Below, in pieces: positions 3,552-42,324 of a stretch of DNA of 64,000 nt. This stretch comes from Flagellimonas hadalis. Lineage in GTDB: Bacteria > Bacteroidota > Bacteroidia > Flavobacteriales > Flavobacteriaceae. Made by a program: the position numbers and the translations under genes. Location: positions 124,001-188,000 of the forward strand of contig NZ_VNIK02000008.1 in the NCBI RefSeq assembly GCF_007785775.2. Direction: 5' to 3'. Position 1 is the first letter of the stretch; each line of letters begins with the position of its first letter. Under the pieces are notes generated by a model. That model was not told where the DNA came from and did not search any database. It worked only from the letters and a program-made list of their open reading frames with translations.

Positions 3552-5639
3552 TTAGCCCATCAAAATGTGGAGTATTTCTATGGCTGCATCACTGATCTTC
3601 GTACCGGGTCCGAAAACCGCTACGGCACCATGTTCCAGTAGGTGTCCATAATCTTGCTTGGGTATGACACCGCCCACAATCACCATGATGTCTTCCCTTC
3701 CCATTTTTTTGAGTTCTTCGACCACTTCCGGTACCAAGGTCTTATGGCCTCCGGCAAGGGACGAGATGCCCAGCACATGGACGTCGTTCTCCACGGCTTG
3801 TTTGGCCACTTCCGAAGGGGTCTGGAACAAGGGGCCTATGTCCACGTCAAAACCGAGGTCGGCATAGCCTGTGGCCACCACCTTTGCCCCGCGGTCATGC
3901 CCGTCCTGCCCCATCTTGGCGACCATGATCCTGGGTCTACGGCCTTCCTGAATGGCAAATTCATCAGCCATTTTTCGGGCCTTTTCAAAGCTTTCGTCGT
4001 TTTTGATCTCTTTGGAATACACTCCGGAAAAGGATTGGATTTTTGCTTTGTAGCGTCCAAAGGCACTCTCCATGGCGTCACTGATCTCACCTAGGGTAGC
4101 ACGTTCTTTGGCCGCTTCCACCGCTAAAGCTAACAAATTTTCACGGTCGGTCTCCTGCTGCATTGCTTTTTTGGCCACAGTCCTTATGTTTTCGAGGGCT
4201 TTTTCCACCGCAACCGTATTTCGGGTGGATTTGATATGCTGAAGACGTTCCATTTGCTGCTTGCGGACCTTTACATTGTCCACTTCCAGGATCTGGAGGT
4301 CGTCCTCATTCTCCAATTGGTACTTGTTCACGCCCACAATAATGTCCTGTCCGCTGTCTATCCGGGCCTGTTTTTTGGCTGCAGCCTCCTCAATACGCAT
4401 TTTGGGAATGCCCGATTCGATGGCCTTCGTCATTCCGCCCAGTTTTTCCACTTCCTCGATCAATTTCCAGGCTTCTTCGGCAATCTCTTGGGTCAATTTT
4501 TCAACAAGATGGCTACCGGCCCATGGATCTACTGTTCTCGTGATATGGGTTTCCTGCTGTAAATAGATTTGGGTATTTCGGGCAATTCGCGCCGAGAAAT
4601 CCGTGGGAAGTGCAATGGCCTCATCCAACGCATTGGTATGCAGGCTCTGCGTGCCACCGAAAACGGCAGCCATGGCCTCAATGGTGGTCCTGGCCACATT
4701 GTTGAAGGGATCTTGCTCGGTCAAGCTCCAGCCACTGGTTTGGCTGTGGGTACGCAGCATGGACGATTTTTCATTCTTCGGTCCGAATTGTTGCACCAGT
4801 TTGGCCCAAAGCATGCGACCTGCACGCATTTTGGCAATTTCCGTGAAATGGTTCATCCCTATTCCCCAGAAAAAAGAAAGGCGAGGGGCAAATTCATCGA
4901 TTTTCAAACCTGCCTTGATCCCGGTCCGGATGTATTCAATCCCGTCCGCCAAGGTGTAGGCCAATTCCATGGCCGCAGGTGCGCCAGCCTCGTGCATATG
5001 GTAGCCAGAAATACTGATGCTGTTGAATTTCGGCATATGTTTGCTGGTGAACTCGAAAATATCGGCCACCAGTTGCATGGAGGGAGTGGGAGGGTAGATG
5101 TAGGTGTTCCGCACCATGAACTCCTTCAAAATATCGTTCTGGATAGTTCCCGAAAGTTGTTCCATGGGCACGCCCTGCTCCAAGGCCGCCACAATGTAGA
5201 AGGCCATAATGGGAATCACGGCACCGTTCATGGTCATGGAAACGGACATTCGGTCCAACGGAATGCCGTCGAATAGGATTTTCATGTCCTCCACAGAATC
5301 TATGGCGACCCCGGCCTTGCCAACATCCCCAACAACACGTTCATTATCAGAATCATACCCACGGTGGGTCGGGAGGTCAAAGGCAACGGAAAGTCCTTTT
5401 TGCCCAGCTTCCAAGTTTCTACGGTAGAAGGCATTGCTCTCTTCGGCAGTGGAAAATCCTGCATATTGACGGATGGTCCATGGCCTGCTCACGTACATGG
5501 TGGAGTAGGGGCCCCGAAGGAAGGGGGAGATGCCGGCGGCGAAATTGGCATGCCTATAGTTATGAGTTATGGGTTTTGAGTTATGAGTTTCACCCAATTC
5601 TGAACTTAATTCCAAATGCTGAAGGTCCTTCCTACTCAT
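3552..5639 (-). CDS. Methylmalonyl-CoA mutase, large (catalytic) subunit
   Basis: Adenosylcobalamin-dependent enzyme that interconverts (R)-methylmalonyl-CoA and succinyl-CoA. The start at 5639 gives 695 residues and overlaps the small-subunit end; an upstream in-frame ATG at 5696 would lie inside that gene. The TIM-barrel domain begins with [20 protein letters not shown] and continues through [16 protein letters not shown]. The C-terminal B12-binding domain carries the base-off ligand motif DGHDRG at about 579-584 and the SSLAGGH loop. A short in-frame ACTCATA-rich repeat encodes the linker near residues 18-28 and does not look like ordinary mutase sequence. It follows the small subunit, so the two make the alpha-beta heterodimer. 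It diverges from a carboxylase operon that would supply methylmalonyl-CoA. Confidence 0.96.
5559..5590. repeat. Short ATAACTC-type repeat inside the mutase reading frame
   Basis: On the plus strand, GTTATGAGTTAT is followed by GGGTTTTGAGTTATGAGTTT, three imperfect copies of a 7-10 base unit (ACTCATAA or ACCCATAA on the coding strand). Such ACTCATAA strings are usually intergenic in this group. Here the length keeps the mutase frame open and encodes the linker NSKPITHNY, just before the conserved barrel start. Confidence 0.6.
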
Positions 5640-7029
5640 TGTCCAATCGTTTTTGTTCCAGACTTTCTGCCAGTCTTCGGGATATAATGGGTTCAATAAG
5701 GGTTTTTCGGGGCTGGGTTTTCACAAAAGGGTATAGCTCCAGATCATCTTTCATGCGATCTTGGGGGTTCTGGTATTTGTTCGTTCCCAATGATATGATC
5801 TTGCCCTCATCAAAAAGCTGTTGTTCCTTTGCGGCACTTTCCTTGATTTTTTGTTGGATGGTCCCTTTTTTCAAGGCATCCAAAAATCCGCCCGAAGCTT
5901 CTATCTGTTTGAAGAGTGCCAATGCCTTTTCCGCCAGTTGTTGGGTGAGCGATTCGATGTAGTAAGCTCCTTCCGAAGCAGTTGAAGTGCTATCAAAATA
6001 ACTTTCCTCTTTCAGTAACAACAATTGGTTTCGGGCCAAACGGCTACCAAACTCATTGTCCTTGTGGTAGATGGCGTCATAGGGGAGGTTGCACACCGTA
6101 TCGGCACCGCCCAGCACGGCCGACATACATTCGGAAGTGGTACGGAGCATGTTCACGTTGTAATCGTACAGGGTCTTGTTCCGTTTGGTGGGCACGGCAA
6201 GAATGTGGCAATCGTTATTTAAATCGTATACTACGGCCAACGTGTTCCAGAGCCAACGCAATGCTTTCAATTTGGCTATTTCAAAGAAATAGTTGCTGCC
6301 CACGGCCACATCAAAAACAATCCCAGGACTTTTATCATTTACAATAACTGTATCATAGCCAAAAGTATGCAGGTACTCATGGGCATGGGCCAACCCATAG
6401 GCCAGTTGTTGTACCATGTTTGCTCCTGAGTTTTGATACATCGAAACATCTACCTTCAGGGAACATTTGATATTTGCTTTTATAGCCTTGATCAGGATGT
6501 CACTTAGAAAATGCCTATCCTTTTCCAGATTGTGGTACCAGTTTCCATCTTTGGCCAAATGACCGATAATGTCCAAGTTGAGGAATATATTTGCTTTTTG
6601 GCCGTCGGTCATGGACAAGAGCCGTTTGATGGATTCCACGTCCAAAAACCCGAAATTCAAATGTATTGGAGTTTTTTCTAAATCGATATCAGCAAGAAGG
6701 ACGGAAAAATCTGTTTTTGGCTCGGGAATGGTAAAAATCAAACTGCCAGCTCCTTTTTTGAGGGCGTCCAAGGCTTTTGCATTTGCTTTTTTAGGGTCTC
6801 CGGCATAGACGCCCTCCGCAATTTGCCACGTATGGCCTTCGGGTAGGGGAAAGGTCTTGGTGCTTTCCATATCCTCCGAGTGGTAGAAGGGCTTTACCTT
6901 GATGCCCTCCAACGATTCCCAGACCAAGGTGTCGTTGTAGTCGGCTCCTTTTAGATCATATTGGATCTTCTGTTTCCATTGTTTTGCGGAAACTTCGGGG
7001 AATTCATCAAATAGGCCACTGTCAGTCAT
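5632..7029 (-). CDS. Methylmalonyl-CoA mutase, small subunit
   Basis: A 465-residue non-catalytic beta subunit. It shares the mutase TIM-barrel framework ([20 protein letters not shown] near residue 16, [20 protein letters not shown] in the middle, [15 protein letters not shown] near 335) but stops before a cobalamin-binding domain and has no DxHxxG motif. It is needed for the heterodimer with the adjacent large subunit. Its first 8 bases overlap the end of the DivIC-like gene, and its stop overlaps the large-subunit start (AATGAGTAG), so the genes are translationally coupled behind udk. Confidence 0.95.
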
Positions 7030-7354
7030 TTTGTTTGTTTTTCAAACTGTCCTCGTACTCGATAAGGAAGATTTCTTCATTTTCCTTTTTCATGTAATAT
7101 TTTTCGCGGGCCAGTTTTTCCAATTCATTTTTATCCGACATCTTTTCGAGGATCTCCTTGTCCTTTGCAATTTCATCTTTGAGGAAATCCTTCTGTTTTT
7201 CCAGTTTCTTGATCTCGTTCCGCAGCTCCATGTGGATCAATAGGGAGTTGGTGTCGAAAAAGGCCATCCATATCACAAAAATGGTCAGTACCAAAATATA
7301 CGTATTGGTAAAGACTTTGAACCATTTTTTCTGTTTTAATTCCTTCAGGCCCAT
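7022..7354 (-). CDS. DivIC/FtsB-like septum formation protein
   Basis: A 110-residue bitopic membrane protein: a short basic cytoplasmic N-terminus, one transmembrane helix (about residues 16-32, TYILVLTIFVIWMAFF), then a periplasmic heptad coiled coil (about 40-75) and the family end motif LAREKYYMKKENEEIFLIEY. It belongs to the septum formation initiator family, which bridges the divisome with FtsL and FtsQ/DivIB. Size, topology and the AREKYxMKK motif support the family firmly; choosing between FtsB and DivIC names is convention. It sits between udk and the mutase genes with almost no spacing. Confidence 0.92.
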   Translation of the reverse strand: MGLKELKQKKWFKVFTNTYILVLTIFVIWMAFFDTNSLLIHMELRNEIKKLEKQKDFLKDEIAKDKEILEKMSDKNELEKLAREKYYMKKENEEIFLIEYEDSLKNKQND

Positions 7355-7356
7355 GG

Positions 7357-7965
7357 CTATGCCAGTTTATTGTTGATGATGGTCCGCACAATATCCACGG
7401 CCACCGTGTTGTAGTGGTTGTTCGGGATGATGATGTCCGCAAACTCCTTCGAAGGCTCGATAAACTGTTCGTGCATCGGCTTTACGGCGGTCTGGTATCT
7501 TGTCAGCACCTTGTCCAGATCATGTCCCCGTTCCCGTATGTCGCGCTGCAACCTGCGGATCAACCGCTCATCGGAGTCGGCATGCACAAAAATCTTGATG
7601 TCGAACAGGTCGCGGAGTTTTGGGTTGCTCAGCACCAATATGCCCTCAACGATCATCACCTTTCGGGGCGGGGTCGGAATCGTCTCCTCCAAACGTGTTT
7701 CCTCCACAAAGGAATATGCGGGCATTTGGATGGTCTTTCCTTCCCTCAGTTGCACCATATGGGAGATCAACAAGTCAAAATCAATGGAGTTCGGATGGTC
7801 AAAATTGACCTTCCCACGCTCCTTCCTGTCCATGTGGGAAAGGTCGTTGTAATACGAGTCCTGTGAAATAACACCCACTTCATTTTCAGGAAGTTGGTCA
7901 ACAATTTGATTGACCACCGTCGTTTTTCCACAACCGGTGCCCCCGGCAATCCCTAAGATCAGCAT
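7357..7965 (-). CDS. udk: Uridine kinase
   Basis: A 202-residue P-loop kinase that phosphorylates uridine and cytidine in pyrimidine salvage. The Walker A motif GGTGCGKT is at residues 8-15, YYNDLSHMD and NFDHPNSIDFDLL form the substrate lid, and RLIRRLQRDIRERG is the arginine-rich C-terminal region. The ATG at 7965 is chosen because it places the P-loop at the usual distance; the longer open frame to 8094 adds an unrelated tail and would cover the promoter. It is the first gene of the udk, divIC-like, mutase small, mutase large unit. Confidence 0.95.
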   Translation of the reverse strand: MLILGIAGGTGCGKTTVVNQIVDQLPENEVGVISQDSYYNDLSHMDRKERGKVNFDHPNSIDFDLLISHMVQLREGKTIQMPAYSFVEETRLEETIPTPPRKVMIVEGILVLSNPKLRDLFDIKIFVHADSDERLIRRLQRDIRERGHDLDKVLTRYQTAVKPMHEQFIEPSKEFADIIIPNNHYNTVAVDIVRTIINNKLA

Positions 7966-35592: not shown

Positions 35593-35690
35593 TTTTGTCG
35601 GGAAAAATTCCCTAAATTGTACTTCCATTATTGATTTTTCGTGTGATTTGACTTTCGCTTCAACCAATGTTTCACTTAAAGCGAGAACAC

Positions 35691-36965
35691 ATGAATACCT
35701 CTAACTCCTTCAGTATCAGTTTTTGGCTGAAAAAATCAGGAAGAAAAAAAGATGGACGGTTTCCAATTTATGTCCGGATCAGATGTAAAGGAAAAAATGC
35801 AGATCTCAGTGTCCATAGATCAACTTTTGAAGAACGATGGTGTCCTATTTTGGGAAAAATGGACCATAGGGCCAGTGAATCCGTTGTTGTAAACAAATAT
35901 CTGGACGACGTCCGTGCAAAGTTGCTGGAATGCCATCGGCAACTTAGTGCCGAGAGTAACTTTATAACGGCACAATCCATCAAGCTTCGATATCTGGGAA
36001 AGGACAAGGTGATGCTCACCCTATTGGACCTTTTGGAGTACAACCGAACCTATGAGTTGCCCAAACTGGCCAAAGGGACGGTCAAGAACTATTCCTCCAC
36101 AGAGACCTACCTGAAACGCTTCATTGCCAAAAAATATCGGGTACCCGATATTGGGCTGGCCTCGATAGACTATGCCTTTTTGATCGAGTTTGAAAACTTC
36201 CTGCGGAACTGCGAACCCATCAAATCGTTCCAGACATTGAACAACAACGGTATCATGAAACATATGCTGCGGTTCAAGAAATTGGTGACCATGGCCTATA
36301 AATTTGATTGTATCCCCAAGAATCCCTTCAATCTGTATAAAGTGAAAATGGAGGATTATGACAGTGCTTTCTTGGAAGAGGAGGAAATTCTGGCGCTGGA
36401 CCAATTGGAATTCGAGGAAAAGGGCATGGAACTGGTCCGGGATATTTTCCTTTTTGCCTGTTATACCGGACTCAGCTACATAGAGATCAAACTTCTCAAT
36501 CCCAATGGTATCGTATCCGGCATCGACGGGGAACTCTGGATCGATGTAAAACGCCAAAAGACCAAGACCGAAGTGAAGGTTCCCCTATTGCCCAAAGCCA
36601 AGAAAATCTTGGAGAAGTATGTGGATTTTCCCAAAAATGAAAATACCGTTCTTCCAGTGTATTCCAATCAAAAGGTGAACCAATACCTAAAGATCATTGC
36701 ACAAAGGGCAAATATTGATAAGCACCTAACCTTCCATGTGGCCAGACATACCTTTGCAACGACAATCACCTTAATGAACGACGTGCCCATTGAGACCGTT
36801 TCCAAACTCCTCGGGCATACCAAGCTTTCAACGACCCAAAAGTATGCTAGGGTCGTGGAAAAGAAAATCAGCAAGGACATGGCCCAGTTGAAGGAGAAAT
36901 TGGGAAGCGGGCAAAGTAAAGCGAACGACAATTCGGAATATCCGACCCTAAAGATTATCAGGTAA
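35691..36965 (+). CDS. Tyrosine-type site-specific recombinase (Bacteroidota integrase)
   Basis: A 424-residue integrase with an N-terminal arm-binding region (NSFSISFWLKKSGRKKDGRF), a SAM-like core-binding domain (about 110-210) and a catalytic domain. Visible catalytic residues are Lys in the KRQKTKTEVKVPL hairpin, HVARH (His and Arg II), GHTKLSTTQKY (His/Gly and nucleophilic Tyr). The usual Arg I position, in CYTGLSYIEI, is Ser where most relatives have CYTGLRYSD; CTnDOT IntDOT is known to lack the canonical Arg I. ATG 35691 fits the family N-terminus; ATG 35667 is an alternative. It probably mobilised the following island. Confidence 0.93.
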   Translation: MNTSNSFSISFWLKKSGRKKDGRFPIYVRIRCKGKNADLSVHRSTFEERWCPILGKMDHRASESVVVNKYLDDVRAKLLECHRQLSAESNFITAQSIKLRYLGKDKVMLTLLDLLEYNRTYELPKLAKGTVKNYSSTETYLKRFIAKKYRVPDIGLASIDYAFLIEFENFLRNCEPIKSFQTLNNNGIMKHMLRFKKLVTMAYKFDCIPKNPFNLYKVKMEDYDSAFLEEEEILALDQLEFEEKGMELVRDIFLFACYTGLSYIEIKLLNPNGIVSGIDGELWIDVKRQKTKTEVKVPLLPKAKKILEKYVDFPKNENTVLPVYSNQKVNQYLKIIAQRANIDKHLTFHVARHTFATTITLMNDVPIETVSKLLGHTKLSTTQKYARVVEKKISKDMAQLKEKLGSGQSKANDNSEYPTLKIIR

Positions 36966-37049: not shown

Positions 37050-37433
37050 ATGGATAAGAACATATGCATACGTTTGGAGGCGGATGCCAAACAGATAATG
37101 GAATGCAGGGAAACTATGCAAAATTTGGAAAATTCCATGGACTCCCTTTCAGGGATAATGAATTTAATGGGCAATCCGGTTCGGCTTAAGATTCTCTACC
37201 TTTTGAACCAAGAGCAACGCTTATGTGTCTGTGACCTTAGTGATATACTGGAAATGAATGTATCCGCAATTTCACAACATTTGCGCAAGCTCAAGGACAG
37301 AAATTTGATCACATCCCAAAAGGAAGGCCAGATGATCCATTATTCCTTGGTGACCGATCATTCGCCGTTACTTTTTCCAATTTTTGACCTGCTCGATAAA
37401 AAAGAACAAATAAAACCAGTAAACCATGAATAA
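37050..37433 (+). CDS. ArsR/SmtB-family metalloregulator (mercury operon)
   Basis: A 127-residue winged-helix repressor. The core LMGNPVRLKILYLLNQEQRLCVCDLSDIL holds the CVC metal-binding motif at the start of the alpha3 helix, used for thiophilic metals in ArsR/CadC proteins, and ISQHLRKLKDRNLI is the recognition helix. A cysteine-containing N-terminal extension (MDKNICIRLEADAKQIMEC) may supply extra ligands. It overlaps the MerT-MerP fusion gene by 8 bases and so most likely senses Hg(II); bacterial mer operons more often use MerR. Confidence 0.9.
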   Translation: MDKNICIRLEADAKQIMECRETMQNLENSMDSLSGIMNLMGNPVRLKILYLLNQEQRLCVCDLSDILEMNVSAISQHLRKLKDRNLITSQKEGQMIHYSLVTDHSPLLFPIFDLLDKKEQIKPVNHE

Positions 37434-38028
37434 CAAGAAAACCTTAATGGGATCTTCCATTATTTTGGCCATGGCCACCTCCCTTTGTTGCATAGGACCA
37501 CTTTTGGCCATTGTGGCCGGAACATCTGGCCTGGCGTCCAATTTTAAGTTTTTGGAACCGTTCAGACCGTATTTGATCGGAATTACGGGTTTGGTTTTGG
37601 TAGTGGCGTGGTACCAACAGTTAAGGACAGTCGCCAAAAAGGAAATAGACTGTGCATGCGATACGGACGAAAAGCCGGCCTTTTGGAAGGGTAAAATTTG
37701 GTTGATGACCATCACGGTCTTTGCCTTAGCGATGCTTGCCTTTCCCTATTATGCCCAATCTTTGTACCCGAAACAGGAAGCCAAGGGTCAAACGAACTTT
37801 TTTGCGAGCCAAGATGTCAAGGAAATCAATATTCCGGTCGTGGGAATGACATGCAGTGGGTGCGAGGCACATATTGAACACGAGGTCAATGGACTTGATG
37901 GGATCATCATGGTCAAGGCAGATTACCAAAAAGCCAATGCACAGATAATGTACGATCCCGCCAAAACCACCAGGGATGCTATCGTGAACGCCATTTTGAA
38001 AACCGGATACACCATAAAGGACCAGTGA
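37426..38028 (+). CDS. merTP: MerT-MerP fusion, mercuric ion transport protein
   Basis: A 200-residue inner-membrane protein. The N-terminal MerT part has three transmembrane helices, with the vicinal cysteine pair SLCCIGPLLAIVAGTSG in helix 1 and a cytoplasmic CACD pair near residue 70. The C-terminal HMA domain (about 135-200) has GMTCSGCEAHIEHEV, the MerP GMTCxxC motif. MerP captures Hg(II) and passes it through MerT to a cytosolic reductase. The single-chain merTP form is known in Bacteroidota. No mercuric reductase gene is present in the window. Confidence 0.93.
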   Translation: MNNKKTLMGSSIILAMATSLCCIGPLLAIVAGTSGLASNFKFLEPFRPYLIGITGLVLVVAWYQQLRTVAKKEIDCACDTDEKPAFWKGKIWLMTITVFALAMLAFPYYAQSLYPKQEAKGQTNFFASQDVKEINIPVVGMTCSGCEAHIEHEVNGLDGIIMVKADYQKANAQIMYDPAKTTRDAIVNAILKTGYTIKDQ

Positions 38029-38030
38029 TA

Positions 38031-38243
38031 ATGGATATCAATCTGTACTCTACAATTACCTGTCCGCATTGTGGCAATTCCAAAGAGGAAAAGATGCCTA
38101 CGGATTCTTGTCAGTTCTTTTATGAATGTGAAAATTGCGGCTCCATTCTAAGGCCCAAAAATGGCGATTGTTGCGTGTATTGTTCCTTTGGTTCGGTGGC
38201 CTGTCCCCCCATTCAGGCAACATCCGGATGTTGTGGTACATGA
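38031..38243 (+). CDS. GDCCVxC-domain cysteine-rich small protein
   Basis: A 70-residue soluble protein with two zinc-ribbon-like pairs (CPHCG and CENCG), the family box NGDCCVYCSFGSVACPP and a terminal SGCCGT. The family (sometimes a selenoprotein) accompanies mercury and heavy-metal genes; a metal-chaperone or scavenging role is suspected only. ATG 38031 is chosen; a GTG at 38025 overlaps the merTP stop. Confidence 0.88.
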   Translation: MDINLYSTITCPHCGNSKEEKMPTDSCQFFYECENCGSILRPKNGDCCVYCSFGSVACPPIQATSGCCGT

Positions 38244-38290: not shown

Positions 38291-38344
38291 TTTTATCGAA
38301 AATCTTTTTATGTTGAATCAATATATTGTAATATTGCGATAAAA
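38291..38344. promoter_or_regulatory. Autoregulatory operator of the arsenic ArsR
   Basis: TTTTATCG (38291-38298) and CGATAAAA (38337-38344) are perfect inverted 8-mers 38 bases apart. The right arm sits within TATTGCGAT, repeated in the next operator at 38712-38720. The regulator ATG follows 7 bases later. Confidence 0.55.
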
Positions 38345-38351
38345 TAATGAT

Positions 38352-38684
38352 ATGGGACTGGCAAAGACCGAAATATTTACCGAAAACCAGAATGAGCTCG
38401 CCCTCATCGGTAAGGTATTTGCCCATCCCGCCCGGATTGCCATATTGCAGCACCTCTTCAAGGTCAAGGCCTGTGTCTGTGGTGACCTTGTGGACGAGAT
38501 AGGACTGGCACAGCCTACGGTTTCACAACACTTGAAGGAACTCCGGAACATGGGACTCATCAAGGGCGATGTGGAGGGCACCAGTGTCTGTTACTGTGTC
38601 AATGTGGCAAATTGGAACGAAATGAAGGATAAGTTCAAGGCATTCCTCGATCAGGGGATTGAACTGGACCAAGAGTGCTGTTAG
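38352..38684 (+). CDS. arsR: ArsR-family arsenic regulator
   Basis: A 110-residue winged-helix repressor. AHPARIAILQHLFKVKACVCGDLVDEI has the CVCGDL metal-binding box of ArsR, and PTVSQHLKELRNMGLIKG is the recognition helix and wing. CYC (about residue 79) and the terminal ECC may add thiol ligands. As(III) or Sb(III) binding would release DNA and induce the following arsenic genes. It is followed by a 68-base gap containing an operator-like palindrome, so repression may act at two sites. Confidence 0.92.
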   Translation: MGLAKTEIFTENQNELALIGKVFAHPARIAILQHLFKVKACVCGDLVDEIGLAQPTVSQHLKELRNMGLIKGDVEGTSVCYCVNVANWNEMKDKFKAFLDQGIELDQECC

Positions 38685-38700
38685 TATTTTTTTGAACCCA

Positions 38701-38722
38701 TTAATCGTTTTATTGCGATTAA
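38701..38722. promoter_or_regulatory. Second ArsR operator, before the exported ArsC-like gene
   Basis: TTAATCG (38701-38707) and CGATTAA (38716-38722) form a perfect 7-bp inverted repeat with an 8-base spacer. It shares TATTGCGAT with the operator preceding arsR, which supports binding by the same regulator. It lies 31 bases before the next start codon. Confidence 0.6.
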
Positions 38723-38752: not shown

Positions 38753-39385
38753 ATGAAAACAAAAATGATCCTAACCATGGCACTGCTGCTGTTGTGCCTC
38801 CCATTGACCACACATTCCCAGGAACTGAGGGGAAAGATCCAACGCTCCGTAAAGGAACTGAAGACCGTTTTTCCCCAGATACCCAAAGAAAAGATCCAGC
38901 TTTTGGACCAACTCGCCGCCAGAATGGTGTCCAATATGGGGGAGACCCCTTATACCGTTGTATTTGTGGACCAGGACAATGACGATATGGGCCAATTGGC
39001 CATGATCTGGCTCAGGACGGGCCTTATGTACTACGGATTATATGACAGGTTCAAGGTGGAATCCGCTGGTCTGGATACCGCCAATGAGACCCTTCCCGGT
39101 CTGGCCCTGCTGAAGAACGATGGGTTCAGGGTCTCCAATGCGCAGGGCGAATCCCTGTTCACGTATTCGGTCCGCTATGGCTCCGATAGTTGGACCATCA
39201 ACAGAAAGACCCTCGAATCCTTACATTTGGACGAGGACAGCAGTGTCAAGGTATATGTACAGGATGGGCTGACGGACCGAAATGCAGAGGTCCTTTTTGA
39301 AAACAAGGCCGTCATCGCGGGGGAAATGATCTATGTCGCCACCCAGGTCGATGCTATTATCAAAGCTAAAATGAACAATCCATGA
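38753..39385 (+). CDS. Exported, apparently catalytically dead ArsC-like (LMW-phosphatase fold) protein
   Basis: A 210-residue protein with a Sec signal peptide (MKTKMILTMALLLLCLPLTTHS). Mature residues 60-140 align by eye with the ArsC encoded 1.1 kb downstream: FVDQDNDDMGQLAMIW against FICTHNSRRSHLSQIW, then VESAGLDT against CYSGGTEA and DGFRVS against QGFQIQ. The catalytic CX5R loop is lost: the Cys position is Asp and the Arg is Met. It therefore cannot be an arsenate reductase of the usual mechanism and would act outside the cytoplasm. Role unknown; an arsenic-binding or scaffold function is speculation. It overlaps the DUF6428 start (ATGA). Confidence 0.75.
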   Translation: MKTKMILTMALLLLCLPLTTHSQELRGKIQRSVKELKTVFPQIPKEKIQLLDQLAARMVSNMGETPYTVVFVDQDNDDMGQLAMIWLRTGLMYYGLYDRFKVESAGLDTANETLPGLALLKNDGFRVSNAQGESLFTYSVRYGSDSWTINRKTLESLHLDEDSSVKVYVQDGLTDRNAEVLFENKAVIAGEMIYVATQVDAIIKAKMNNP

Positions 39386-39852
39386 AATTATCAGAAGTAA
39401 AAGAAGTACTGTCCCGATTGGAAACCCTTGGCTTCCAATTGCCCACCGGGGAAATGGTCCCCGGACATTTCCATGTCACCGAAGTGGGGAAGATTCACAA
39501 ACACTTTATAGACTGCGGGGGAACCGTGCGCCATGAGGAAGTGGTCAGTTTCCAACTGTGGGAGGCCAACGACTATGACCACAGGTTGCATCCCGAAAAG
39601 TTGGTTCATATCATCGAACTGTCCCAAAAGGTATTGGAAATAGAGGACTCACTGGAAGTCGAAGTGGAATACCAGGGCACCACTATCGGAAAATATGGCC
39701 TTGCCTTTGATGAAGGGCATTTTCTGTTGACCACCAAGATGACCGACTGCCTTGCCAAGGACCAGTGTGGGGTCCCCGAAAAGAAACCAAAGGTAAGACT
39801 GTCCCAATTGAAAAGTGAGCCCTGCTGTTCCCCGGACGGCAATTGTTGCTAA
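39382..39852 (+). CDS. DUF6428-family protein of arsenic operons
   Basis: A 156-residue cytosolic protein of the DUF6428 family, which is regularly found in Bacteroidota arsenic operons and has no assigned activity. HFHVTEVGKIHKHFIDCGG is the conserved His-rich stretch; two acidic strands follow. The tail EPCCSPDGNCC carries two vicinal cysteine pairs suited to binding As(III), an inference from composition. It lies between the exported ArsC-like gene (4-base overlap) and arsC (16 bases). Confidence 0.85.
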   Translation: MKLSEVKEVLSRLETLGFQLPTGEMVPGHFHVTEVGKIHKHFIDCGGTVRHEEVVSFQLWEANDYDHRLHPEKLVHIIELSQKVLEIEDSLEVEVEYQGTTIGKYGLAFDEGHFLLTTKMTDCLAKDQCGVPEKKPKVRLSQLKSEPCCSPDGNCC

Positions 39853-39868
39853 ATCTTAATTCTATATA

Positions 39869-40501
39869 ATGACTACGACCACAACTAGCCTGTTCCCTGA
39901 AATAGCGGGATTCATCACAACCTTGAAACTGGATGCCGTTTCCCCGGAGCGTAGGGAAATCCTTGATCCCCTTGCCGGGTTCATACAGTCGAAAGTTTCC
40001 GAAAATCAGGAAATACGCCTGAATTTCATTTGCACCCACAATTCCAGGAGGAGCCACCTGTCACAGATATGGGCACAGGCCATGGCTTTCCATTTCAACA
40101 TCAAGAACGTATTTTGCTATTCGGGGGGGACCGAAGCCACGGCCCTGTTCCCGATGGTGGCGGAAACCTTGGGGAAACAAGGGTTCCAGATCCAACAGCT
40201 TTCACAGGGACAAAATCCTGTCTATGCCATCAAATATGCGGAAAATGCCCATCCGGTGATCGGGTTCTCCAAGAAAATGGACGATGCCTTCAACCCCAGT
40301 TCCGGCTTTGGGGCCATCATGACCTGTGATTCGGCCAATGAGGCCTGTCCCTTTGTGCCCGGTGCGGAAAAGCGCATCCCCATCACCTTTGAGGATCCCA
40401 AGGCCTTTGACAATACCCCGCAACAGGCCGAGAAATACCTTGAAAGGAGCATACAGATAGCAACGGAACTTTGGTATGTATTTTCACAGATCAAATCATA
40501 A
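39869..40501 (+). CDS. arsC: Arsenate reductase, low-molecular-weight phosphatase type
   Basis: A 210-residue cytosolic enzyme. The phosphate loop FICTHNSRRSH has the CX5R pattern (Cys then Arg six residues later), followed by VFCYSGGTEATALFP and the C-terminal ITFEDPKAFDNTP, which corresponds to the DP/D-loop region with the general acid Asp. Later cysteines (MTCDSANEACPFVP) could form the resolving relay that thioredoxin-linked ArsC uses. It reduces As(V) to As(III) for export by the next gene, 3 bases downstream. Confidence 0.93.
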   Translation: MTTTTTSLFPEIAGFITTLKLDAVSPERREILDPLAGFIQSKVSENQEIRLNFICTHNSRRSHLSQIWAQAMAFHFNIKNVFCYSGGTEATALFPMVAETLGKQGFQIQQLSQGQNPVYAIKYAENAHPVIGFSKKMDDAFNPSSGFGAIMTCDSANEACPFVPGAEKRIPITFEDPKAFDNTPQQAEKYLERSIQIATELWYVFSQIKS

Positions 40502-40504
40502 CAC

Positions 40505-41551
40505 ATGGCAGTAAAAAAATTGAGCTTTTTGGACAGGAACCTTACCCTTTGGATCTTTATCGCCATGGCGGTAGGGGTCGGTATCGGTTACTTCTTCCCG
40601 TCCTTCCCCGACATCATCAATTCGTTCAACAGCGGCACCACTAACATCCCCATTGCCATAGGTCTCATCCTGATGATGTACCCACCTTTGGCAAAAGTGG
40701 ATTATAAACTGTTGCCCAAGGTGTTCAAGAACACCAGGATCTTGACCATTTCCCTGGTGCTCAACTGGATCATCGGCCCCGTGTTGATGTTCGTCCTGGC
40801 CATCCTCTTTTTGAGGGACTATCCCGAGTATATGGTCGGATTGATATTGATAGGTTTGGCCCGTTGCATTGCCATGGTGCTGGTCTGGAATGACCTGGCC
40901 GAGGGCAGTGCGGAATATGGTGCGGGACTGGTGGCCCTGAACAGTATCTTCCAAGTGTTTGCCTACAGTTTCTATGCGTGGATCTTTATCACCGTTTTGC
41001 CCCCATATTTTGGCTTTGAAGGGGCCATTGTGGACATCTCCATAGGGACCATAGCGGAGAGTGTGGCCATTTATTTGGGCATCCCCTTCCTTATGGGCAT
41101 CCTTAGCCGAACGATATTGGTCCGGATCAAAGGGGAACAGTGGTATGCCCAAAAGTTTGTTCCCGCCATTTCTCCCATGACCTTGATCGCCCTGTTGTTC
41201 ACCATTGTGATCATGTTCTCCCTCAAAGGGGAACTTATCGTGGAGATTCCCATGGACGTGGTGGTGATCGCCATACCCCTCTTGGTGTACTTTACCCTGA
41301 TGTTCATCATTGGGTTCTTTTTCACCAAGGCGATGGGTGCCGAATATGACAAGACCGCTTCGGTGGCCTTTACAGCAGCCGGGAACAACTTTGAGCTCGC
41401 CATTGCCGTGGCCATTGCCGTCTTCGGACTGGATTCCGGCCAGGCCTTTGCAGGGGTCATCGGGCCCTTGGTGGAAGTTCCTGCCCTGATTCTGTTGGTA
41501 AGGGTCGCCTTTTGGTTGCGCAAAAAGTATTTTAAACCGCAAACCGCATAA
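40505..41551 (+). CDS. acr3: ACR3-family arsenite efflux transporter
   Basis: A 348-residue permease with 10 predicted helices in the bile-acid/arsenite superfamily. Helix 4 contains [18 protein letters not shown], whose cysteine is essential in characterised ACR3 pumps, and [19 protein letters not shown] marks helix 9. [18 protein letters not shown] follows helix 2. It extrudes As(III), possibly Sb(III), using the proton gradient. It begins 3 bases after arsC and ends 2 bases before the phosphoesterase gene, so the operon continues. Confidence 0.95.
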
Positions 41552-41553
41552 GG

Positions 41554-42324
41554 ATGAAAATTGCACTCTTCTCGGACATCCACGCCAACCTTCCTGCCCT
41601 TGAGGCCTTTTTTGTGGATGTGGAAAAACATAGGCCGGACGCCATCTATTGCCTTGGGGACCTTGTGGGCTATAACATCTGGCCCAACGAGGTGGTCCAT
41701 GAGATCAGAAAACGCCGGATACCCACCATTGCGGGCAACTATGATTTTGGCATCGGACGCAACAGTGATGATTGTGGCTGTGCCTACAAGAGCGATGAGG
41801 AAAAGGCGAACGGGGCAATTTCCATATCCTATACCAACTCCATTATGGGGGATGATGAAAGGGCCTACCTGAAAAACCTTCCATCCCATATCAATGTGGA
41901 GTTCAAAAGGAACGATGAAACAGTGAACCTACTCCTGGTGCATGGAAGCCCAAGACGAATCAACGAGTATCTTTTCGAGGACCGGAAGGAGAAGAGCCTG
42001 GTACGCATCCTGCGGGATGCAAATGCCGATATCCTCTGTTTTGGACATACACACCAACCCTATCACAAGGCCCTTTTGGATTATGATGGAGGCACCATAT
42101 ACCGCCATGCGATAAATATCGGATCCATCGGAAAGCCCAAGGATGGCGACAATAGGGGATGCTATGTGCTGTTGAACATGGATGGGAACTTCCGTAGGCC
42201 GGACAAGAATAGCATCCATGTGGAGTTTGTACGCTTCGAATATGATGTCGAAAAGGCGGCCAAAGCCGTTGAGGGCAGCATATTGCCCAACGCTTACGCT
42301 GGAGCATTGAGAAAGGCCCATTGA
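41554..42324 (+). CDS. Metallophosphoesterase (calcineurin-like) in the arsenic operon
   Basis: A 256-residue dimetal phosphoesterase. Motifs in order: DIHAN at 8-12, GDLVGY near 36, GNYDFG in place of GNHD near 63, LLVHGSP near 130 and GHTHQPY near 162. The DDCGC insert after GNYDFG is unusual and could bind a thiophilic ion. Relatives hydrolyse cyclic nucleotides, phosphodiesters or Ap4A; the substrate here is unknown. The last gene of the arsenic operon by spacing. Confidence 0.9.
   Translation: MKIALFSDIHANLPALEAFFVDVEKHRPDAIYCLGDLVGYNIWPNEVVHEIRKRRIPTIAGNYDFGIGRNSDDCGCAYKSDEEKANGAISISYTNSIMGDDERAYLKNLPSHINVEFKRNDETVNLLLVHGSPRRINEYLFEDRKEKSLVRILRDANADILCFGHTHQPYHKALLDYDGGTIYRHAINIGSIGKPKDGDNRGCYVLLNMDGNFRRPDKNSIHVEFVRFEYDVEKAAKAVEGSILPNAYAGALRKAH

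Follow-up and report, generated by a model that had tools for sequence, protein, structure and literature searches.

The window analyzed is a stretch of 64,000 nucleotides from a contig of Flagellimonas hadalis, and positions without a locus handle refer to it. It contains an arsenic operon with the gene order arsR2, X, a DUF6428 gene, an ArsC-like gene, ACR3, and a metallophosphoesterase gene, in which X denotes the gene under study and its product. The features are as follows.

35667–36965, plus strand: tyrosine-recombinase-like integrase, named by reading the sequence and located close to where a shared segment has its left edge.
37050–37433, plus strand: arsR1, metalloregulator of the upstream mercury-type unit (Pfam and NCBIfam).
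37426–38028, plus strand: MerTP mercuric transport fusion (NF033556, over cut-off).
38325–38340, no strand: palindromic ArsR-type box ATTGTAATATTGCGAT before arsR2 (pattern search).
38352–38684, plus strand: arsR2, ArsR/SmtB metalloregulator (Pfam and NCBIfam scans) with a CVC motif found by reading.
38704–38719, no strand: palindromic ArsR-type box ATCGTTTTATTGCGAT before X, beginning 49 nt upstream of its start codon (pattern search).
38753–39385, plus strand: X, 210 amino acids, predicted exported and catalytically dead protein of the ArsC/LMW-PTP superfamily (ORF list, BLASTP, profile-profile alignment).
38753–38821, plus strand: predicted signal peptide of X, about residues 1–23, with cleavage near THS/Q or SQ/E (simple rule, not SignalP).
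38969–38989, plus strand: apparently dead P-loop DQDNDDM (residues 73–79) replacing CTHNSRR (alignments).
39382–39852, plus strand: DUF6428 protein, its start overlapping the X stop codon in ATGA (ORF list, Pfam).
39869–40501, plus strand: cytosolic ArsC-like enzyme with intact CTHNSRR, a C-x6-C pair, and a DPK motif (alignment, profile match to solved structures).
40505–41551, plus strand: ACR3 arsenite efflux transporter (TIGR00832, over cut-off).
41554–42324, plus strand: calcineurin-like metallophosphoesterase, with linkage to X at several loci (Pfam, locus comparison).

Seven named records hold an X of 93–100% identity, all of them from the Flagellimonas/Allomuricauda group of the Flavobacteriaceae. 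Between MerTP and arsR2 lies a small cysteine-rich ORF (38031–38243; GDCCVYCSFG by reading), which is too short for the ORF list.

BLASTP aligned X with the ArsC of the operon over 110 amino acids at 23% identity (E 2e-5), and a profile built from eight X rows found the same ArsC at E 3e-8. In profile-profile alignments (hhalign), 19 X rows matched 42 cytosolic ArsC-like rows with 99.5% probability (E 7e-23, 187 columns), 14 exported rows with 99.7% (182 columns), and seven rows of an exported family with a CxTNxRR loop with 99.4% (197 columns). Twenty column-shuffled control runs, made for the cytosolic group only, reached at most 0.9%. The full-length profile similarity is significant and, as judged from these alignments, X shares descent with the LMW-phosphatase/ArsC superfamily. 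An alignment of the mature part of X with ArsC across the phosphate loop, as claimed in the preliminary description of this DNA, is thus borne out by both methods. The profile of X reached the ArsC structure 2ipa weakly (E 0.31). X alone had no NCBIfam match up to E 1, hence none to TIGR02691, and one Pfam match at chance level. The enzyme of the operon itself falls below the curated cut-offs of Pfam LMWPc and TIGR02691 (E 4e-7 for the latter, far under the cut-off), while the profile of its type matched solved ArsC structures (1jl3, E 4e-16); it is named ArsC here because of this match and its catalytic residues.

Structure prediction by AlphaFold gave low-confidence models, both with six near-identical X rows (pLDDT 37.7) and with mature X only, aligned as four X and three ArsC rows (pLDDT 54.6, pTM 0.61). 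For these two low-confidence models, Foldseek returned no PDB match at E ≤ 0.001 and no LMW phosphatase or ArsC among the 50 best matches listed for each.

The loop alignment of X with ArsC is free of gaps and places DQDNDDM opposite CTHNSRR, so the catalytic Cys is Asp and the loop Arg is Met, as had been read earlier. Asp occupied the position of the loop Cys (Asp73) in 19/19 X rows. At position 79, that of the loop Arg, Lys was found in six rows, Met in four, Ile in four, Asn in two, and Leu, Ser, and Thr in one each, and Arg in none. The loop Asn (Asn76) was retained in 17/19 rows and Gln81 was present in all 19, while positions 74, 75, 77, 78, and 79 were variable. X therefore reads DX5M where pI258-type arsenate reductases carry the CX5R phosphate loop that is found in the ArsC of the operon. 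The thioredoxin-coupled pI258-type ArsC (PDB 1jl3 and 1ljl) has an LMW-phosphatase-type domain homologous to X; unlike it, X carries an export signal and lacks the loop Cys, the loop Arg, both resolving cysteines, and the Asp of the DP general acid, the segment bearing the last three being deleted. Beyond residue 25, Cys is absent from 17/19 X rows; the other two, L031 and L032, each contain a single one. Across 16 rows of cytosolic and exported enzymes, the C-T-x-N-S-R-R-S loop, the two later cysteines, and DPK were all invariant. By this comparison of residues, X has lost every catalytic residue.

The strict conservation of Asp73 at the position of the nucleophile, together with that of Gln81 and Asn76, could also be read to mean that X retained or acquired a chemistry of another kind, in which Asp73 serves as nucleophile or metal ligand. 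This is rather improbable, given that the DP segment is deleted and that the alignments, inspected by eye, show no further cluster of conserved acidic residues close to the loop.

X was found in 26 genomes in total, all of them Flavobacteriaceae. In a draw of 148 relatives, 15 genomes had X-type matches, all in the genus of the window; two more matches, in G090 and G118, keep an intact loop. Among 397 genomes drawn from the Flavobacteriaceae, X was matched at E ≤ 8e-34 in 12, a count that includes the own genome, and the next match stood at 2e-14; X was counted by this score gap, and weaker matches were read only where loci existed. Among 295 genomes of Bacteroidia, the genome of the window was the sole match of that strength. 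X was absent from the plasmids and phages searched, and in viral contigs no relative was confirmed for either the X alignment or the ArsC of the window. Identity to the X of the window falls to 34%, and to 28% in L096. A single open frame spans the whole protein in 18/19 rows, with L011 cut by a contig end. One stop marked inside the matches of L025, L026, L028, and L032 fits the end of the gene because the open frames are of full length (207–211 amino acids).

Ratios of dN/dS (Nei-Gojobori) between the window and L023 and L024 were 0.15 and 0.14 for X and 0.14 and 0.16 for ArsC, each resting on two close pairs. The values for ACR3 were 0.05 and 0.04, and that for DUF6428, from L023 only, was 0.09. 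The match between the values of X and ArsC indicates that X is conserved as strongly as the enzyme. Constraint is greatest in the loop and its following helix, with 11/26 columns identical in at least 17 of 19 rows versus 20/161 in the remainder of the mature protein, and Asp73, Asn76, Gln81, Trp86, Thr89, Tyr94, and Ala105-Gly106 would form a conserved face. The lost active site and the patchy presence of X might suggest a decaying copy without function. The low dN/dS, the open frames, and the sharing of Asp, box, and signal peptide make this extremely unlikely. On the evidence of its sequences, X is a real family under purifying selection with a common P-loop Asp and not a case of local decay. 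Relatives with an intact loop, which the preliminary description had held to indicate such decay, do exist, but the dead loop is common to the whole X clade.

Export was assessed with a simple in-house hydropathy and n-h-c rule with a site of the SPase I type, not with SignalP. Start codons were chosen by script, and rows lacking a start Met, three in all (one X, one CxTNxRR, one cytosolic), were excluded. A signal-peptide-like N terminus was found in 18/18 X rows with a start codon versus 0/41 cytosolic rows; 6/6 CxTNxRR rows and 10/14 other exported rows also passed. The signal peptide noticed in the single sequence thus appears to be a family trait, and these rule-based calls on script-chosen starts support, without proving, export of X by a Sec signal peptide. 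The combination of signal peptide and dead loop, proposed as a search in other arsenic operons, recurs in the 18 X rows with a start codon.

The box before X belongs to a pattern, the loose palindrome ATYG-N8-CRAT, of which the 64-kb window holds seven occurrences, two being the boxes before arsR2 and X. In 18/18 loci scored (the window plus 17 loci, L085 omitted), a box begins 33–51 nt before the start codon of X, including the two scored X loci without an adjoining arsR. A box also precedes arsR2 in 14/14 loci with a called arsR2 start. The strict form, ATYGYWWTATYGCRAT, occurred three to five times per genome in 8/8 genomes chosen among the 26 with X; the reversed control gave none in all eight. 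Of the three strict sites in the window genome, one precedes arsR2, one X, and one a further arsR. In G364, no arsR or X gene was seen near one pair of strict sites (957580/957684). Operons without X (17 loci, arsR recognized in 15) carry a similar second box before DUF6428 in 12/12 scored cases and before ArsC in 0/14. In X operons DUF6428 had no box in 8/8 scored. The second box of the X-less operons suggests that the box marks a second transcription unit, in which X takes the operator-proximal first place. X thus appears to be a member of the ArsR regulon with a putative operator before the gene. The earlier suggestions that X is exported, has lost catalysis, and is linked to arsenic now find support in the signal peptide, the family-wide Asp, and the ArsR-type box; through the box and the conservation of the family, the case for X is stronger than the sequence alone could make it.

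Flavobacterial promoters follow a −33/−7 pattern, which was not enriched in the window (two matches versus a chance mean of 2.58). Sigma-70-like sites numbered 6 versus 8.9 expected, and terminator-like sites 10 versus 7.0 expected. Another ArsR-box unit of the window genome (L185:1501-2863) comprises, by reading, arsR, a DUF6428-like gene, and a GNAT-like gene, and the latter pair recurs in L187, L202, and L205.

The wider surroundings of X were compared in 18 of the 26 genomes, the other eight, including that of the window, holding near-identical copies. The arsR2 gene lies directly upstream of X in 15 of the 18 loci; two loci of one genus (L089 and L091) have no arsR, and L085 is cut by a contig end. 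L094 consists of arsR2, X, and a metallophosphoesterase gene, and L082 and L013 have DUF6428 inserted before the last, with the contig of L013 ending there. In L086 and L088, arsR2 and X stand alone. No ACR3 match (E 1e-50) was found in 4/26 X genomes (G006, G069, G497, and G242), and no match to ArsC of the own type (E 1e-10) in 3/26 (G006, G069, and G497). G497 and G242 are single-contig assemblies, and G006 is a fragmented 94% assembly. Among arsenite pumps, the search covered ACR3. The persistence of X in genomes without matches to ACR3 or the own-type ArsC argues against an obligate partnership with either. A role as partner of ACR3, raised in the preliminary description, accordingly lost ground. 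A reading of X as a subunit that assists ACR3 or the ArsC of the operon would agree with their common operon in the window and many loci, but, with these genomes and the isolated arsR-X units at hand, we regard it as very unlikely.

In L089 (4841–7313), L091, and L192 (1501–1619), X without arsR is divergent from a gene for a regulator of the Rrf2 type (by reading) and a PAPS_reduct gene, and in each of the two genomes concerned, two ArsR-type boxes lie upstream of X. The X locus L086 is near ftsZ, and the CxTNxRR genes of L107, L109, and L114 are near ftsA/ftsZ (by reading); this may be chance.

In a tree of 82 rows, all X rows fell into a single clade (100/100) with a long stem (1.69). The best tree united X with the exported CxTNxRR family (99/97), apart from the flavobacterial cytosolic ArsC. 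This pairing may be a long-branch effect because of the long stem of X. Neither a clade of X and 28 cytosolic ArsC rows from flavobacteria (p-AU 0.26) nor one of X and seven exported enzyme rows (p-AU 0.10) was rejected. The earlier proposal that X arose by duplication of the ArsC of its own operon did not gain the support of the best tree; as far as these sequences indicate, such a duplication is possible but not favored.

The CxTNxRR family was present in 10/295 Bacteroidia genomes at E 2e-92 or better. Like X, it carries an export signal and, in the best tree, it is nearest to X; unlike X, it keeps the loop with Cys and Arg. The DP acid and one resolving Cys are missing in the six rows shown. 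A phosphate-porin-type gene follows the CxTNxRR gene in 3/10 loci with context (L118 from scans, L108 and L150 by like sequence). In L118:6340-12364, the CxTNxRR relative lies beside a phosphate-selective porin and Pst-type genes. In L108:3571-7750, PhoU_div and PHO4 lie beside it, and L150:5889-10080 has the same order (by reading). L110 has a Porin_O_P gene at a distance of 5 kb, and in the remaining six of the ten loci no link to phosphate genes was noticed by reading.

A second set of exported relatives consists of intact ArsC-like enzymes of other Bacteroidia. Like X, they have an export signal and sit in arsR-led operons with DUF6428, ACR3, and metallophosphoesterase genes, but they keep CT(H/S)NSRRS, both resolving cysteines, and DPK, none of which is kept in X. 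In 12 such loci (L099–L106, L111–L113, and L115), neighbors of the arsR, DUF6428, or ACR3 type occurred in nine. The exported ArsC of L152 (7430–8185, minus strand) has a lipoprotein-like start (by reading) and all catalytic residues; after it come DsbD, which includes a thioredoxin domain (6083–7420, minus strand), and then a cytosolic ArsC (5461–6072, minus strand). This arrangement makes it a candidate for a periplasmic arsenate reductase that has an electron supply of its own. Thioredoxin and DsbD_2 genes also lie near the exported intact ArsC of L101. These neighborhoods would agree with X binding a thioredoxin-like or Dsb-type partner and so tuning exported redox chemistry. X itself has no conserved cysteine, and no Dsb gene was noticed by reading among the ORFs of 10 X loci, so that we hold this reading to be distinctly unlikely. 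A DUF2490 gene adjoins the exported ArsC in L105 and L106 and lies near that of L152.

Among ArsC-like proteins, L051 (matched frame at 1366, plus strand), which has no export signal, carries the loop GTHNSRR with Gly for Cys, while its sister L041 keeps CTHNSRR; to judge from this pair, the loop Cys was lost a second time, independently, in L051. In L069 and L075, an ArsC-like CTHNSRR domain ends open frames of about 390 amino acids with a hydrophobic N-terminal half, and the frame of L075 had no Pfam match at E 0.001.

It remains to consider what X does. A periplasmic protein that still binds arsenate or phosphate oxyanions in its P-loop, as a sink, buffer, or sensor, would fit the export signal, the arsenic-type regulation, the loop Asn in 17/19 rows, the Lys at the Arg position in 6/19, and the phosphate genes adjoining an exported intact-loop relative in 3/10 loci. 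With Asp for Cys in all 19 rows, Arg at position 79 in none, and positions 74, 75, 77, 78, and 79 varying where the 16 enzyme rows are invariant, oxyanion binding in the old pocket, an idea put forward in the preliminary description, is weakened, and we consider it unlikely.

We deduced instead, at roughly even chances of being right, that X is a pseudoenzyme of the ArsC/LMW-phosphatase superfamily, induced by arsenic and exported, that acts by binding and not by catalysis. Probably it helps the cell to survive arsenic outside the cytoplasm by non-catalytic means. As(III) would free ArsR2 from both boxes, so that arsR2, X, and the genes behind X would be induced. X would be secreted to the periplasm and would work there by binding, without catalysis. 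The invariant Asp would probably fill the old anion hole of the P-loop from inside, the loop then mimicking the oxyanion-bound state rather than binding arsenate, and the conserved face of X would contact a periplasmic partner. A point against this binding mode is that the Lys at the Arg position in 6/19 rows could still meet an anion. The partner we would prefer, a weakly supported choice, is the entry route of arsenate, i.e. proteins of phosphate uptake, because some members of the nearest exported family lie next to genes for phosphate porins and transporters. This link comes from the CxTNxRR family and not from X; seven of the ten CxTNxRR loci have no adjacent phosphate-uptake gene, and reading of the listed ORFs at 10 X loci revealed none. 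Extended to the Bacteroidota, the scheme would be a periplasmic layer of arsenic defense made of exported ArsC-fold proteins, with a DsbD-fed arsenate reductase in some lineages and, in Flavobacteriaceae, a dead arsenic-induced pseudoenzyme whose oxyanion-mimic loop lowers arsenate entry via phosphate uptake; taken as a whole, it is speculative and improbable.

Non-catalytic proteins that act by binding are known from other settings. AioX, ArrX, and ArxX are exported, arsenic-linked, non-catalytic binding proteins of the PBP fold that feed two-component systems. X resembles them in the first three respects, but no Pfam match to a PBP domain was found at E up to 1 for the X of the window or for 11 X members. 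The eukaryotic protein-tyrosine pseudophosphatases of the STYX type have a phosphatase fold in which the catalytic Cys is replaced, and they act by binding. The catalytic Cys is replaced in X as well, but STYX belongs to a different phosphatase class, is eukaryotic, and is not exported.

Within the open-licence part of PMC, no paper was found for DUF6428 or for arsenate reductase together with pseudoenzyme, phrases for an exported or secreted arsenate reductase or a periplasmic or extracellular ArsC were not found, and no name was found for the exported ArsC-like enzymes of Bacteroidia. The phrase periplasmic arsenate reductase occurred there once in each of three papers, which appear to concern other subjects. 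The exported relatives reopen a question taken up by Castillo and Saier (PMC2963123). To it X would add a pseudoenzyme of the ArsC/LMW-phosphatase superfamily that is linked to arsenic, acts beyond the cytoplasm, and bears a single Asp substitution common to all its rows. Some marine bacteria appear to keep a dead exported relative of ArsC beside a working arsenate-reductase gene and behind its own arsenic-repressor-type site. Where arsR and X form a unit of two genes and the genome matches neither ACR3 nor own-type ArsC, the function of X is open to testing in isolation.

The operon lies in a segment common to other species (35359–64000), which probably represents a mobile element that carries genes for mercury, arsenic, and efflux functions. 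L018 and L022 match the window at 99.9–100% from 35.36–35.40 to 44.38 kb; at the left edge the identity of L018 falls to 92% and L022 ends. L019–L021 match at 96–98% across 33.8–44.4 kb without such an edge. From 44 kb onward, 7/7 other genomes searched match at 98–99%, six reaching the end of the window and one ending 52 bases short of it.
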